Shown one piece after another: positions 627 through 44,713 of a stretch of 44,713 nucleotides of DNA (position 1 is its first letter; every line of letters starts with the position of its first letter). The notes beneath the pieces were generated by a model that saw nothing but the letters and a program-made list of their open reading frames with translations, was not told where the DNA came from and made no database searches. This DNA comes from Chloroflexota bacterium (GTDB lineage: Bacteria; Chloroflexota; Chloroflexia; Chloroflexales; Chloroflexaceae). The position numbers were made by a program, and so were the translations under genes. The stretch spans positions 1 through 44,713 of the forward strand of contig JAUQOZ010000193.1 of NCBI GenBank assembly GCA_030550625.1, in the 5' to 3' direction.

Positions 627-657
627 GGTAGGGGCAGAGCACTGCTCTGCCCCTACC
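627..657. terminator. Perfect 15-bp palindrome between convergent genes (dispersed repeat, likely bidirectional terminator)
   Basis: Arms GGTAGGGGCAGAGCA and TGCTCTGCCCCTACC flank a single central C. The element begins 4 nt after the stop of the DUF1338 gene and ends 2 nt before the stop of the convergent glutaredoxin gene. There is no U-tract, so the terminator role is inferred from position and stem strength. The same core recurs at 5412-5465 and in the right-end repeats. Confidence 0.6.
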
Positions 658-4826: not shown

Positions 4827-4874
4827 AGATTTTGTTGTTACGCTAACGCACGCTTTGCTTAGAAAGTGTCACGT

Positions 4875-5417
4875 ATGAATTCCCCTGCGGTTGCGCTCGA
4901 ATGGCAGGTTGATGCATCACCGTTTCGGAACCCGGCCATTTGGCGGCAAATGGCGCTGGTGTTTGGCGTCCCGATCCTATTGCTTGGCTTGTTGATCGCC
5001 ATTGTGACCGAACACGATCGCTGGCTCACCGCCTTGCGGGTGATCGGTATTGGCGCTGCTGCTGTACTGGGTTTGCTGTTGGTCGCGATGGTGCTGTTCA
5101 AGTTGCTTGGCTACCAGCAACATATTCAGCTTGACGAGACAGGCGTGCGATCTCAGGTCAGCGGTCGGGCGCCGGTCTTTATGAAGACGGCGCGAGCCAG
5201 ATCGCTCTTGAGCGGGCAGACTTCAGTGGCGGCTTCCGGGATGGCGGTGCGCACGAACTATGCGATCCGCTGGGGGCAGGTGTGGAAGGTGGACGTTGAC
5301 GAACAAAAGTACGAACTGTTCCTCTACCCTCCCAGCGGGCCGCCGTTGTTGCTGGCTTGCACCGCTGAGAATTTTGCGACGGTGCGCGAGATTGTGCAGG
5401 CGAAAACGGGGGCGTAG
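4875..5417 (+). CDS. Two-TM membrane protein with C-terminal soluble domain, tandem paralog 3 (function unknown)
   Basis: 180 residues from ATG 4875, the same length as paralog 2, and both begin MNS. The ORF-track GTG at 4866 adds MSR and has no better ribosome-binding site. The layout is identical to paralog 2: LEWQVDASPFRNP, two hydrophobic segments, HIQLDETGVRSQVSGR, AIRWGQVWKVDVDEQ and a closing LLACTAENFATVREIVQAKT. The last 13 residues are almost identical to those of paralog 2 (FATVREIVQAKT), also at DNA level, suggesting recent duplication or gene conversion. The stop codon lies within the left arm of the 5412-5465 inverted repeat, and the gene converges on aroB. No functional assignment is possible from sequence. 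Confidence 0.75.
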   Translation: MNSPAVALEWQVDASPFRNPAIWRQMALVFGVPILLLGLLIAIVTEHDRWLTALRVIGIGAAAVLGLLLVAMVLFKLLGYQQHIQLDETGVRSQVSGRAPVFMKTARARSLLSGQTSVAASGMAVRTNYAIRWGQVWKVDVDEQKYELFLYPPSGPPLLLACTAENFATVREIVQAKTGA

Positions 5418-5465
5418 GGGCAGATCACGCTCTGTCTTGGGGCCGAGCACGCTCTGCCCCTACGC
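5412..5465. terminator. Inverted repeat between convergent paralog 3 and aroB (dispersed GGGGCAGAGC family)
   Basis: Outer arms GCGTAGGGGCAGA (5412-5424) and TCTGCCCCTACGC (5453-5465) are perfect 13-bp complements. The left arm overlaps the TAG stop of paralog 3, and the right arm ends 1 nt before the aroB stop codon. The interior holds two degenerate copies of the same short palindrome. Likely acts as a shared terminator for both strands. Confidence 0.6.
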
Positions 5466-5466
5466 C

Positions 5467-6585
5467 CTACGCCGGTGATAACACCGTTTCGATCACCTCG
5501 ATTGGCACATCGCTGCGCACGGTGACGTGCCCGATGGCGGTGGGCAACACCCAGCGCACCTTGCCGGCCTGCACCTTCTTGTCGCGAGTGATGAGCGCCA
5601 AAATCGCTTCGCGGTCAAGGTCTGCCGGCATTGCGGTAGCGAGGCCGTAAGCGGCGAGCAAGGCACGCTGCCGTTCGACCAGCTCTGGCGTACACATTCC
5701 GAGCGTGACCGCGATCCGCGCCGCGGCGTCCATGCCGATCGCGACGCATTCGCCGTGCAGCAGGCGGTAGCCAAGCAGTTGCTCGACCGCGTGGCCGATA
5801 GTGTGGCCGTAGTTGAGTGTAATCCGTTCGCCGCGCTCGAATTCGTCAATCGAGACGACTTCAACCTTCACTGCGACAGCGCGGGCGATGATGCCGGTGA
5901 GTTCGGCGGTCAACTCGGCGTCGCCGGCGTCCCACGCGGCGGGGTTGGCAGCGTGCCAGCCGCGCGCAGCGGCGAGGTCTTCGAGGGCGGCAAACAGACC
6001 GGCGTCGCGGATGACGCCATGCTTGATCACTTCGGCCCAACCGGCGCGTAACTCACGAGGGGGGAGCGTCGCCAGCAGGTTGGTGTCGGCCAGCACCAGC
6101 CGGGGTTGGTGAAAGGCGCCGATCAGGTTCTTGCCCAACGGATGGTTAATGCCGGTCTTGCCGCCGACGGCGGCATCGACCATCGCCAAGAGGGTGCTGG
6201 GCAGTTGCACCAACGCCACGCCACGCAAGACGGTCGCCGCGGCGAAGCCGGCCAGATCGCCGATCACGCCGCCACCCAGCGCCAACACGGCGTCGCGCCG
6301 CTCGATGCCGTTACCGATCATCCAATCGTAGAGCCGGTGCAGTTCGGTGAACGACTTGCTGTTTTCCCCTGACGGAACCGTGATGGTATGCACGCGGTAG
6401 CCGGCGGCGCGCAGGGTGGCCGCTGTCTGCTCGGCGACCGCCGCCAGATGCTCATCGGCGACCAGCCAGAGCGCGCCGCGCAAGCCAAGCTCGGCGAGCC
6501 GGTCAGCGAGGGTCGCCAACACGCCTGCGCCGGTGACGACCGGATATTGGGTGGTGCTGGTGGTGACGGTGAGGGTGGTTGTCAT
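5467..6585 (-). CDS. aroB: 3-dehydroquinate synthase
   Basis: 372 residues, normal length for AroB. The enzyme converts DAHP to 3-dehydroquinate, the second step of the shikimate pathway, using NAD+ and a divalent metal in the cytoplasm. Visible signatures are VPSGENSKS, the NAD-binding GGGVIGDLAGFAAA, TTLLAMVDAAVGGKTGIN, the Lys-containing WAEVIKHG, the metal-binding histidines in LNYGHTIGHAVE, and LHGECVAIGM. The ATG has an AAGG site 8 nt upstream. No other aro gene is adjacent. The gene has its own candidate promoter (6665-6693) after the terminator of the moeA unit, and a leader hairpin. Confidence 0.96.
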   Translation of the reverse strand: MTTTLTVTTSTTQYPVVTGAGVLATLADRLAELGLRGALWLVADEHLAAVAEQTAATLRAAGYRVHTITVPSGENSKSFTELHRLYDWMIGNGIERRDAVLALGGGVIGDLAGFAAATVLRGVALVQLPSTLLAMVDAAVGGKTGINHPLGKNLIGAFHQPRLVLADTNLLATLPPRELRAGWAEVIKHGVIRDAGLFAALEDLAAARGWHAANPAAWDAGDAELTAELTGIIARAVAVKVEVVSIDEFERGERITLNYGHTIGHAVEQLLGYRLLHGECVAIGMDAAARIAVTLGMCTPELVERQRALLAAYGLATAMPADLDREAILALITRDKKVQAGKVRWVLPTAIGHVTVRSDVPIEVIETVLSPA

Positions 6586-6693: not shown

Positions 6694-6706
6694 TCGGGGA
6701 GGGGAG

Positions 6707-6756
6707 GCGGCAGTGAAACTGCCGCATGCCAAAGGCTAAGGCAGTTTCACTGCCGC
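6707..6756 (-). terminator. Twin palindrome / terminator after the moeA unit
   Basis: Perfect 17-bp inverted repeat GCGGCAGTGAAACTGCC / GGCAGTTTCACTGCCGC with a 16-nt loop. Each arm is itself a palindrome (GGCAGT-gaa-ACTGCC), so either one long stem or two small hairpins can form. It lies just past the small ORF downstream of moeA, so it probably ends that transcript. The same twin design recurs at 29482-29532. Confidence 0.6.
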
Positions 6757-6774
6757 ATTCCATACTAGCAATCG

Positions 6775-6909
6775 TTACTTCCGCCGCCGGTTATAGATGG
6801 TCATAATCACCGCGACCAGCAACAAGGCCAACCCCAGATAGGTCAACGGGCCGGGCCACGGTTCCGGCTCTTGCTGCAAGACACTGAGTAACACGACATA
6901 ATGTTCCAC
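6775..6909 (-). CDS. 44-residue single-TM peptide downstream of moeA (not in ORF track)
   Basis: GTG at 6909 begins 3 nt after the moeA stop, with AAGGA about 7 nt upstream. The frame runs to TAA at 6775-6777. The translation has a short N-terminal part (MEHYVVLLSVLQQEPEPWPG), then one hydrophobic segment (about residues 23-39, rich in Leu/Ala/Val), then a basic NRRRK tail, giving a predicted N-out/C-in single-pass orientation. Its placement between moeA and the twin-palindrome terminator and its near-overlap with moeA suggest translational coupling. I do not recognise a family. It could be a membrane-anchor microprotein or a chance ORF; the clean TM plus positive tail and the ribosome-binding site favour a real gene. 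Confidence 0.55.
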   Translation of the reverse strand: MEHYVVLLSVLQQEPEPWPGPLTYLGLALLLVAVIMTIYNRRRK

Positions 6910-8162: not shown

Positions 8163-8497
8163 TTAGAGTTTTACCGCAGAGGGCGCAGAGAGCGCAGAGG
8201 GTAAGTGAGAACGGACAGGGCACACTTTTTTCCGTATTTTCTCAAACCTTTGCGCGCTCTGCGTTCTTTGCGCCTTTGCGTTTGATCCCTCTGCGCCTTT
8301 GGGTTGGCTCCCACCCCCGGCCCCTCCCCCGCTGGGGGAGGGGTGAATGTTACCGCAGGGGACGCAGAGGGCGATCCACATTCCCAACATCTTTGCGCCC
8401 TTTGCGGGCTTGGCGCCTTTGCGTTTGAATCCTTTGCAAGCTTTGCGCCTTTGCGTTTGAATCCTTTGCGCCCTCTGCGCCTTTGCTTCCCCTGCAC
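8163..8497. repeat. Non-coding repeat block (TTTGCG/GCAGAGG-rich plus CCCGCTGGGGG palindrome)
   Basis: The 350 bp between the hydroxylase stop and moeA hold no gene. They contain GCAGAGGGCGCAGAG-type units, then the complementary orientation (CTTTGCGC, CTTTGCGTT) repeated many times. A 25-nt direct repeat occurs twice (8413-8437 and 8445-8469). A GC-rich palindrome, CCCTCCCCCGCTGGGGGAGGG, sits near 8323-8343. The same families occur at 39521-39865, and the palindrome also at the right end. These look like dispersed intergenic repeats rather than an IS or CRISPR. Confidence 0.8.
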
Positions 8498-8498
8498 C

Positions 8499-10811
8499 TT
8501 ACAAATGATTCATCGCTCGCCACACTTTTTCCGAACGCAGCGGGATGTCGAGGTGGCGCACGCCGAACGGCGCTAGCGCATCGATCACCGCGTTGGCGAT
8601 GGCCGGCGTTGAGCCGATCGTTGCCGCTTCGCCGATGCCCTTCACGCCGAGCGGGTTGAGCGGGGTCGGCGTTTCGGTTTTGTCAACCGTAAAGGGTGGG
8701 AAGAGGTCGGCCCGCGGTAGGGCGTAATCCATCAGCGTGCCGCTAAGCAACTGGCCGTTAGCGTCGTACACCACCTCTTCGAGCAGGGCTTGGGCGATGC
8801 CTTGGGCCAACCCGCCATGCACTTGACCGGTGACGATCAGCGGGCTGATGCGCGGCCCGCAATCATCAACCGAGTAGTATTCGCGGATACGGATGTGTCC
8901 GGTTTCGCGATCGACTTCGACTACGGCGACGTGCGCGCCAAAGGGATAGATCAGGTCTGGCGGGCGGAAGTAGTCCACCGCTTCGAGGCCGGGATCGAGT
9001 TCGGGCGGCAGTTTGTTGCTGTAAGCGCGGCGGGCAATCTCGGCGAGGGTGAGGGCGCGATCGGGCACGCCGCGCACGCGGTAGCGACCCTCGTGCAGCT
9101 CGATATCGGCCACACTGGCTTCGAGCATTGCCGCTGCAATCTGGCGCGCCTTCTCGCGCACCTTAGCGGCGGCCCGCACCAGCGCCGCGCCGCCGACGGC
9201 CAGCGAGCGCGATCCCATCGTACCGACCCCCATCGGCGTGATTGCGGTATCGCTGTGCTTGACCACGATTCGCTCGAAATCGGCTCCAATCTGGTCGGCG
9301 ACGATCTGGGCGAAGGTAGTGGCGGTGCCTTGCCCATGCGGCGAGATACCGGTCGTCACCGTCACTGTCCCGCTCGGTTCAACCTTGATTTGGGCGCTTT
9401 CGTAGGGGCCGAAGCCGCACATTTCAACATAACAAGCAATGCCGATGCCGAGCAGCATACGGTCGCCGGCGGCGCGGCGGGCGGCCTGCTCGGCGCGCAA
9501 CTGCTCGTACTTCGCCAGCGTCAGGGCTTTGGTGAGGGCGCGGTCATACTCGCCGCTGTCATACGTCAGGCCGGTCGGTGTCTTATAAGGGAAGGCATCG
9601 GGCGGAATAAAATTGCGCCGGCGTACTTCAGCCGTATCTAAACCGAGCTCGGCGGCGACAAGATCCATGAGCCGTTCGATGTAGTAGGCGGCTTCAGGCC
9701 GGCCCGCGCCGCGGTAGGCGGCGACCGGCGTGGTATTGGTATAGACGCAAATCGCTTCGAGATCAACGGCGGGGATTTTGTACACGCCGACGGCCATCGC
9801 GGTGGTCAGATCGGGCAAACCGGGAGCAAGCGGATAAGCGCCGAGATCAGCCACAATCTGCATGCGCAGCGCGGTCACTTCACCCTCTGCTGTAACCGCC
9901 GCCTCGATGTCGCACACCTGCCCACGTCCGTGGGTCGTCGCCTGCACATGTTCGAGCCGGTGTTCGACCCAGCGCAACGGTGCGTGGAGTTGGCGAGCCA
10001 GCGCGGCCAGCAGCGCCTCTTCGGGGTAGATGCCGATCTTGACGCCGAAACCGCCGCCGACATCGGGCGCAATCACGCGCACCCGGTTCTCGTCGAGGCC
10101 GATTACCTTAGCGATCTCGCCGCGCACTTGATGCGGCGTTTGGGTGCTTGTCCACACGGTTACGCCATCGTTGGCGGGGTCGGGCGCGGCCACCACTGCG
10201 CGCCCCTCCATCGGGAAGCCGAGCAGGCGCTGGTTGACCATGCGTTGGCGCACGATGCGATGGGCGGCAGCGAAAGCGGCCTCAACATCACCCTTTTGAC
10301 GACGGCGGCGATGGTCAATATTGTCGGGCAAGCCATCGAAGATGATCGGCGCACCGGGGGCAATGGCGGCGAGCGGATCAACCACTGCTGGCAGCGGTTC
10401 CCATTCGATGGGTAGAGCCAGCGCCGCATCGAGCGCCGCTTCCGGGGTGCGAGCAATCACCGCGGCGACCGCTTCGCCAGCGTGGCGCACTCGCTCCACC
10501 GCCAGCACATAGCGGGTGCGGCCAGTGTAGCGCTGTGGCCCGCCGCCGCCTTCGCCTGAGCTGGCTAGCGGCAATGGCTGGCAACAATCGAGCAGGTCAG
10601 CGCCAGTATAAACGGCGACGACATCAGGCATCGCCAGCGCGGCTGCCTTATCAATCGCAACAATGCGGGCATGGGCATACGGGCTGCGGGCAATGGCAAC
10701 GTACAGCATGCCCGGCAGGCGCAAATCACTCACATACGTGCCCTGCCCCTGAATAAGACGCGGATCTTCACGGCGCTTGACTTCAGCGCCAATCAGGGCT
10801 GCATAGGCCAT
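8499..10811 (-). CDS. Xanthine dehydrogenase/CO dehydrogenase-family molybdenum-binding large subunit (form II-like CoxL)
   Basis: 770 residues, full length for the family. An N-terminal a/b-hammerhead domain (about 18-130) is followed by two molybdopterin-binding domains. Signatures are RREDPRLIQGQGTYVSD, DVGGGFGVK, and the active-site loop AAYRGAGR (around Tyr366), which is the form II pattern, not the AYxCSFR loop of true aerobic CO dehydrogenase. QVHGGLAQGIAQAL and the catalytic-Glu motif GVKGIGEA (Glu728) are also present. It should hydroxylate an aldehyde, purine or aromatic heterocycle using Mo-cofactor; the substrate is unknown. The usual FAD (CoxM) and 2Fe-2S (CoxS) partners are not adjacent in this window. 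moeA lies downstream beyond a repeat block. ATG 10811 is the family-typical start. Confidence 0.9.
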   Translation of the reverse strand: MAYAALIGAEVKRREDPRLIQGQGTYVSDLRLPGMLYVAIARSPYAHARIVAIDKAAALAMPDVVAVYTGADLLDCCQPLPLASSGEGGGGPQRYTGRTRYVLAVERVRHAGEAVAAVIARTPEAALDAALALPIEWEPLPAVVDPLAAIAPGAPIIFDGLPDNIDHRRRRQKGDVEAAFAAAHRIVRQRMVNQRLLGFPMEGRAVVAAPDPANDGVTVWTSTQTPHQVRGEIAKVIGLDENRVRVIAPDVGGGFGVKIGIYPEEALLAALARQLHAPLRWVEHRLEHVQATTHGRGQVCDIEAAVTAEGEVTALRMQIVADLGAYPLAPGLPDLTTAMAVGVYKIPAVDLEAICVYTNTTPVAAYRGAGRPEAAYYIERLMDLVAAELGLDTAEVRRRNFIPPDAFPYKTPTGLTYDSGEYDRALTKALTLAKYEQLRAEQAARRAAGDRMLLGIGIACYVEMCGFGPYESAQIKVEPSGTVTVTTGISPHGQGTATTFAQIVADQIGADFERIVVKHSDTAITPMGVGTMGSRSLAVGGAALVRAAAKVREKARQIAAAMLEASVADIELHEGRYRVRGVPDRALTLAEIARRAYSNKLPPELDPGLEAVDYFRPPDLIYPFGAHVAVVEVDRETGHIRIREYYSVDDCGPRISPLIVTGQVHGGLAQGIAQALLEEVVYDANGQLLSGTLMDYALPRADLFPPFTVDKTETPTPLNPLGVKGIGEAATIGSTPAIANAVIDALAPFGVRHLDIPLRSEKVWRAMNHL

Positions 10812-28351: not shown

Positions 28352-28441
28352 CTCAGCGCAATGATTGATACACGAGCAACCTGCTGATTGTACACCGGCA
28401 CATTTGCTTCACAGAGCGTCGAACGCTCAGGAGGGATCGCA

Positions 28442-30603
<2,162 letters not shown>

Positions 30604-44023: not shown

Positions 44024-44303
44024 GGTTCGTTCCTCAACTGCTTTGGTAGTTCTCTCTATTCTATTGCATCCCTCAAGACGTGACCGAATCCCCGGAAGGT
44101 CGAGCCAGCGCGTTCCTCTCTATACTATAGGTGTAAGGGCGGGTAGAACACATGAGCGCAGATATGGTTGAAGGCTTTGCGATGCGCTGGTGTACCCCTA
44201 CCCCTAGCTCCTCTCCCACTGGCGTTCAAGGGCGGACAGAACATCGGTCTGGAACCCGGCCCTCAAGGGCTGGGCTAGGGGTACGAAGCGCTGCGCGGGC
44301 TGA
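44024..44303. other. Intergenic stretch upstream of the Rsm22-like gene, no gene seen
   Basis: No convincing CDS. It contains a short AT-rich region (44040-44066) suitable for the promoter of the Rsm22-like gene, but no clear hexamers. From 44190 on the sequence is GC-rich repeat DNA. The ORF-track frames at 44152-44361 and 44204-44605 run through repeats and lack family features. Confidence 0.6.
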
Positions 44304-44420
44304 TGCCCCCACCCCAGCCCTCCCCCGCTGGGGGAGGGAGTCGCCCCTCGCGCACCCCTGATGTCATTGCGAGCCGCGCGTAGGGGTAGAGCGATGCTCT
44401 GCCCACGCGCGGCGAAGCAA
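44304..44420. repeat. 117-bp direct repeat, copy 1
   Basis: Identical base for base to 44597-44713. It holds three sub-elements: a GC-rich palindrome (CCTCCCCCGCTGGGGGAGG), the GTCATTGCGAGC...GCGAAGCAA family, and inside the latter a hairpin (44373-44413) with outer arms GCCGCGCGT/ACGCGCGGC and inner AGAGC/GCTCT. Confidence 0.9.
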
Positions 44421-44596
44421 TCCCCTGCGAGCACGGGATCCATCACTGCACGCATCCTGTTCGCCCACGCAGGAGCTTGCTGCGGGCGCTGCGCGTCCGC
44501 GCACCGACAGGAGGAAAGTGGGTTACGCCCCCTTGAAATGACAACCGAACCAGCCTTGCGCTCCCCGCGGGTGCTGGTGCGCCAAGCGATAGAACT

Positions 44597-44713
44597 TGCC
44601 CCCACCCCAGCCCTCCCCCGCTGGGGGAGGGAGTCGCCCCTCGCGCACCCCTGATGTCATTGCGAGCCGCGCGTAGGGGTAGAGCGATGCTCTGCCCACG
44701 CGCGGCGAAGCAA
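44597..44713. repeat. 117-bp direct repeat, copy 2, cut by the window end
   Basis: Perfect copy of 44304-44420, offset 293 bp; its nested hairpin is at 44666-44706. It runs to the last base of the window, so the repeat may extend further. The 176 bp between the copies hold no convincing gene. Confidence 0.9.

Follow-up and report, generated by a model that had tools for sequence, protein, structure and literature searches.

Several gene ends in a stretch of Chloroflexota DNA of 44,713 nucleotides (the window) carry a short palindrome that is repeated in inverted orientation. The question raised by this locus is what such twins are, and whether selection on shape accounts for them. We consider it probable, at roughly 86%, that each twin is a dimer from one of two REP (repetitive extragenic palindrome) families, whose hairpins are non-autonomous and depend on a RAYT for copying. 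Repeats of this type are well known in bacteria; here they are piled up at gene ends and have apparently been spread by REP-type transposases.

The window (G+C content 60%) takes up the initial 44.7 kb of a contig of 71 kb, one of 395 in a 4.74-Mb genome. Its AroB has its best match, at 69%, in an uncultured Chloroflexales bacterium. Our genome sample comprises 1.58 Mb of fetched stretches in which genes were called by a hexamer model. Because its contigs were chosen partly by hits, densities in this sample are biased, and positions are unbiased. The genus set holds eight genomes (G000-G007), including single-contig genomes of 4.7-5.3 Mb, and the comparison of congeners is one of counts and coordinates.

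Twin palindromes of two families

The palindromes are genuine and greatly exceed what chance would give. Pairs with identical 6-nt arms and a gap of at most 20 nt are found twice in the window, against 0 in 30 first-order Markov copies. The enrichment at gene ends that an earlier note on this DNA had predicted is also seen in the 1.58-Mb sample, with 14 of 24 generic twins falling within 60 nt after a stop codon; this zone covers 5% of the sample.

All four sequences quoted in that note match the DNA, and inverted twins are present at three of its four sites. The first consists of two units of a family that we call F1. The unit at 6707..6725 on the plus strand (GCGGCAGTgaaACTGCCGC, loop GAA) has kept its right arm, gcatgcc, and its left outer arm is degraded. 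Its partner at 6740..6754 on the minus strand (GGCAGTttcACTGCC, loop TTC as read on the plus strand) has the outer arm gcattccata, which extends to about 6766. Together the two form one 22-nt inverted repeat at 91% identity, and position 6754 lies about 20 nt past the stop codon of a 44-aa, small membrane-protein-like ORF (6775..6909, minus strand) whose 3′ end faces the twin.

The other sites belong to a second family, F3. The dimer at 29479..29528 on the plus strand (stem triplet ACA, loops GT then AC) is built of GGCACAGCgtGCTGTGCC (29485-29502) and GGCACAGCacGCTGTGCC (29511-29528), an 18-nt inverted repeat at 100%. The GTAG at 29479-29482 includes the stop codon of the upstream ORF (28388..29482, plus strand; putatively sugar-nucleotide epimerase-like, by eye), and the first unit begins 2 nt after the TAG. 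A partly degraded dimer at 5410..5467 on the plus strand (GGGCGTAGGGGCAGATCACGCTCTGTC / GGCCGAGCACGCTCTGCCCCTACGCCC) lies between convergent ORFs, where 5410-5432 and 5445-5467 make up a 23-nt inverted repeat at 87% with degraded inner units; here, GTAG at 5414-5417 holds the TAG stop of ORF 4866-5417. The fourth site, 627..657, is not a twin but a single F3 palindrome (GGTAGGGGCAGAGCACTGCTCTGCCCCTACC, assigned to neither strand) that sits between convergent genes, 3 nt past a TAA stop.

The same architecture was thought to recur at 6707 and 29485 in different letters, but these are examples of two unrelated repeat families. A single class of F1 and F3 selected for its shape was rejected, since sequence, tag, RAYT and placement all differ. 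The idea that shape matters more than sequence does hold within F3, whose stems stay paired. Inversion is not the rule either. Among 10 close F1 pairs, 1 is exactly inverted and 5 are direct, and neighboring F3 units are inverted in 3 cases, direct in 4 and neither in 6. Dimers would arise by inverted or by tandem duplication of a unit, and the loop (GT/AC or GAA/TTC) would thus be the sole mark of orientation.

F1 and its probable transposase

The F1 consensus, taken from 50 copies, is TATGGAGTGCGGCAGTnnnACTGCCGCACTCCATA, 35 nt long with a free loop. Its core, GGCAGTnnnACTGCC, is found 202 times genome-wide as against 1 time for a reversed control, and the 10 close pairs compare with 0 in the control; most copies are therefore single. 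The family is extragenic, with 0 of 81 copies in genes. No GTAG or CGTC tag is present in the consensus of 50 copies, and for this reason we file F1 as a RAYT-associated palindrome rather than as a GTAG REP. Its preference for gene ends is weak (26 copies on the stop side and 17 on the start side of tandem regions), and convergent regions show no excess per region.

The earlier note had asked for a RAYT-type transposase gene, and one is present. P0001 is an intact RAYT of 187 aa that scores 93.1 bits against REP_Tyr_transpos (cut-off 80), carries the HUH motif NHYH and the tyrosine motif YVHHNPVKHG, and is bordered by F1 on either side. Strict F1 counts are 148 in G000 (P0001 intact, 100%) and 208 in G007 (ortholog intact, 92%), where F1 copies lie 13 and 62 nt from the ortholog. 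G002, in which the P0001 ortholog is broken by an internal TGA stop, has 17 strict copies, and G001, which lacks the ortholog, has 24. The remaining counts are 2 in G005 and 0 in each of G003, G004 and G006. In G003, a RAYT of 60% identity is present and F1 is absent. Having a RAYT relative is therefore not enough to predict F1 copies, and the REP of this one may be different. F1 numbers thus track P0001 in the genus, which fits RAYT-driven copying and decay after loss, although with n = 8 related genomes this is a strong hint and not proof.

F3 keeps its shape while its letters change

F3 has the layout GTAGGGGC-nnn-GC..GC-nnn'-GCCCCTAC with a loop of 2-4 nt. The strict form occurs 22 times versus 1 control hit, GGCACAGCnnGCTGTGCC with at most 2 mismatches occurs 47 times genome-wide versus 3, and a third of the genome holds 65 perfect intergenic cores. 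The family is found in all genomes of the genus, in up to 166 copies, with dominant stems that differ by congener. Canonical REPs carry their tag at one end; F3 does carry the GTAG tag, but its ends are symmetric (GTAG...CTAC).

There is clear evidence that the F3 hairpin keeps its shape while its letters change. Outside gene interiors, the inner triplets are fully paired at 66 of 99 sites, whereas shuffles give a mean of 12.4 and a maximum of 23. The family has 15 distinct stem triplets. Inside genes, the triplets pair at 2 of 163 sites.

F3 also occurs within RAYT-like genes. One ORF (L140, 6366-7052) contains a GAC-type unit in frame and another (L073, 3287-4078) an ACA-type pair in frame; in both, the F3 sequence lies in the linker between the HUH and tyrosine motifs, and the stems differ. 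Both ORFs score under the 80-bit cut-off. Pfam Y1_Tnp finds 2 RAYTs and misses these F3-bearing genes at its cut-off; they were recovered with NCBIfam. In G005, two RAYT hits enclose a GTAGGGGC palindrome, judging from coordinates. The link between F3 and RAYTs is thus based on two in-frame cases here and on coordinates in one congener. Taken together, the RAYT flanked by F1, the F1 numbers that track it in the genus and the two RAYT-like genes with F3 argue for REP-like mobile elements, one of the identities that had been suggested for the twins.

On the surface, an inverted double palindrome looks like a recombination site, and a different agent could be imagined for the twins: they might be recombination sites of the attC type, repeats like those of CRISPR arrays, or members of a known family of structured RNAs. 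Given that an Rfam search returned no match, that the elements are scattered without cassette arrays, and that they are associated with RAYTs, we consider this explanation negligible next to that of RAYT-copied repeats.

Gene ends, folding and termination

The placement of F3 is pronounced. Its regions are convergent in 20 cases and divergent in 1, where 7.5 and 16.9 are expected (p = 8e-10), and within tandem regions 39 of 45 copies are closer to the stop and 6 to the start (p = 5e-7). A stop codon lies within 60 nt of 52 of the 66 copies, and in 12 cases it is at most 4 nt from the F3 core, i.e., inside the element's own tag. TAG is the stop in 35 of 58 genes beside F3, compared with 29% of all genes. 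F3 is extragenic as well, with 12 of 92 copies genic when overlaps with gene ends are counted.

It is reasonable to ask whether the elements are chiefly transcription terminators or barriers at mRNA 3′ ends, selected for shape and evolving by compensatory change, with no mobility. The positions near stops and the near absence from divergent regions are what this would predict, as are the covarying stems and the very stable folds, with energies of -29 to -50 kcal/mol. However, the U tract of an intrinsic terminator is absent after F3. The mean is 1.8 T in the 9 nt that follow, lower than the 2.5 after other gene-end hairpins, and at least 5 T are present in 3 of 56 cases. A terminator role had been put forward for the twins; in its intrinsic form it is therefore unsupported and was rejected on T content. 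Rho-dependent stopping or a 3′-end barrier would be candidate roles. Furthermore, the fixed outer GTAGGGGC is common to dozens of loci, copies lie within RAYT ORFs, and elements are missing from orthologous gene ends. We therefore regard a terminator or barrier as the chief identity of the elements as improbable.

It had also been suggested that the twins switch between one long stem and two short hairpins. Both folds can be drawn, but in RNA folds of the twins examined the long stem is preferred by 13-23 kcal/mol, which makes an equilibrium switch unlikely. On a nascent strand, the hairpins may nonetheless be the first to form.

Sister species differ in the presence of elements and in the number of their tandem copies. 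G007, the closest congener (about 91%), retains most hairpins, and it differs by whole tandem units of 22 nt at L139 and 65 nt at L107. Window positions 5418-5456 and 6702-6762 have two alignments apiece in G007, corresponding to second copies of both twins. In G002 (80-86%), three gene ends that carry F3 dimers here are much shorter: 20 nt rather than 77 at L096, 32 rather than 114 at L104, and 12 rather than 133 at L107. Named relatives were too distant for intergenic alignment.

Nested palindromes and possible template switching

About one F3 element in five is nested within a larger palindrome, and the flanks differ at every locus. An outward palindrome of at least 8 nt past the core is present in 15 of 81 elements, where controls predict 2%, and beyond GTAG...CTAC the outward run averages 3.6 in 31 tagged elements, versus 0.37. 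In perfect or near-perfect hairpins at four loci (L127, 1208-1264; L133, 12585-12613; L136, 16696-16724; L137, 9488-9515), the mirrored sequence consists of the last codons and stop of the neighboring gene. Because the flanks are specific to each locus, we read them as growth via template switching. The flanks of another hairpin family, F2 (GTAGAGAC...GTCTCTAC), look mostly non-palindromic by eye, and nesting is therefore mainly an F3 trait.

These observations suggest another possible origin for the elements, namely that the palindromes are in the main made and perfected by template switching during replication at gene ends, which mirrors the gene ends as well, a mutational process that would need no transposase. 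The locus-specific flanks outside GTAG...CTAC, the arms made of a neighboring gene's last codons and the slippage units (22 and 64 bp) all agree with it. Yet such a process cannot yield an identical GTAGGGGC or TATGGAGTGCGGCAGT at many unrelated loci, and it leaves the RAYT correlation unexplained. As a full account it is very unlikely, although template switching may be superimposed on REP mobility.

Perhaps F3 REPs serve as seeds for perfect palindromes that extend outward, a proposal that we make tentatively and consider rather doubtful. Strand switching at the hairpin would copy the gene's last codons outward and rewrite the inner stem in matched pairs, such that shape is kept by mutation and not by selection. 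If this is true, then the gene merges with the repeat, and each locus gains a hairpin of its own whose letters diverge.

Comparison with known systems

GTAG REPs are palindromes of 20-40 nt with 2-3 nt loops and a GTAG end, and they form subfamilies with complementary stem changes. They occur as head-head (HH) and TT dimers, the HH dimers with GTAG outside. They are located at gene ends, where the TAG of the tag can be the stop codon, and copies are known inside ORFs; some families are nested in larger palindromes that share consensus targets (Di Nocera et al. 2013, PMC3733652). F3 resembles them in all of these respects: size, loops, GTAG end, paired stem changes, dimers, gene ends, TAG stops, ORF copies and nesting. 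GTAG ends lie outside in the L096 dimer and the L073 pair; the 29485 twin in the window, which has retained GTAG on the left only, is likewise the head-head dimer of the literature. F3 differs in having a mirror image of its tag (CTAC) at the opposite end and in that the nesting palindromes differ per locus. It is also dispersed, unlike the Chloroflexota family T. roseum GTAG-23, which is found in a few large blocks (PMC3733652).

REPtrons combine a TnpAREP/RAYT with REP and iREP sequences and BIMEs (PMC8266576; PMC6006769). P0001 flanked by F1, the paired REPs and the tandem amplification are reminiscent of this arrangement, but F1 has no GTAG guide, and F3 is found inside the coding sequence of RAYT-like genes instead of on their flanks. 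In a REPIN, two REPs form an inverted pair (Bertels and Rainey 2011, PMC3116915), as do the units of the 29485, L096 and L104 dimers. Here, however, most copies are single and an inverted dimer is uncommon; the dimer as a replicating unit is therefore unsupported, and the twins are not classed as REPINs. Intrinsic (Rho-independent) terminators share with the elements the GC-rich hairpin directly after a stop codon, but not the lack of a U tract, the sequence common between loci or the presence and absence among species. We found no description of these repeats in Chloroflexus in the papers searched. The kind is otherwise ordinary (REP dimers with RAYTs) and the families are new; the locus-specific mirror flanks are the least familiar detail.

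Several other repeats were observed in this genome. Further intergenic hairpin families include F2 (GTAGAGACGCACGGCCGTGCGTCTCTAC), F4 (CCCTCCCCC-AGC-GGGGGAGGG) and two smaller ones. Composite repeats of the form CCCTCCCCC-GCT/AGC-GGGGGAGGG lie at 8240-8500 and 44266-44631 of the window, with dozens of relatives here and in G007. An AGA-type F3 is central in a larger mosaic repeat, TGTCATTGCGAGC...GCGAAGCAATCTCC (L036, 5637-5711 and 6048-6122; L041, 1663-1737; L090, 4034-4475), which is among the genome's most frequent intergenic words. At L077, 7093-8420 (C361), a second RAYT-like gene, P0002 (62.8 bits, under the cut-off), ends shortly ahead of a CRISPR-like array with the repeat GTTCACCCCCACGTGCGTGGGGACAAC, and the hairpin AGAGACGGC...GCCGTCTCT lies between them. 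Finally, the hairpin unit GGGCGCAACGCGCCC is present in eight tandem copies of 37 bp at L008, 13494-13767.

Implications for REP biology

If the twins are RAYT-copied REPs, their features could be explained as follows. The RAYT, an HUH/Y1 REP-associated tyrosine transposase, would recognize the folded single strand and copy the hairpin. Placement at gene ends would result from purifying selection against genic insertion, together with the TAG within the GTAG tag. The stems would stay paired because the RAYT, and perhaps also a role as a 3′-end barrier, needs the hairpin, and template switching between arms during replication would supply many of the paired changes.

This genus offers a natural REP series outside Proteobacteria, in which the RAYT is intact, broken or lost and the repeat is abundant, dwindling or absent. 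F3, in turn, is a test bed for the origin of paired hairpin changes, whether by selection on shape or by template switching, and it suits that question because, at dozens of loci, its stems vary independently of its flanks.
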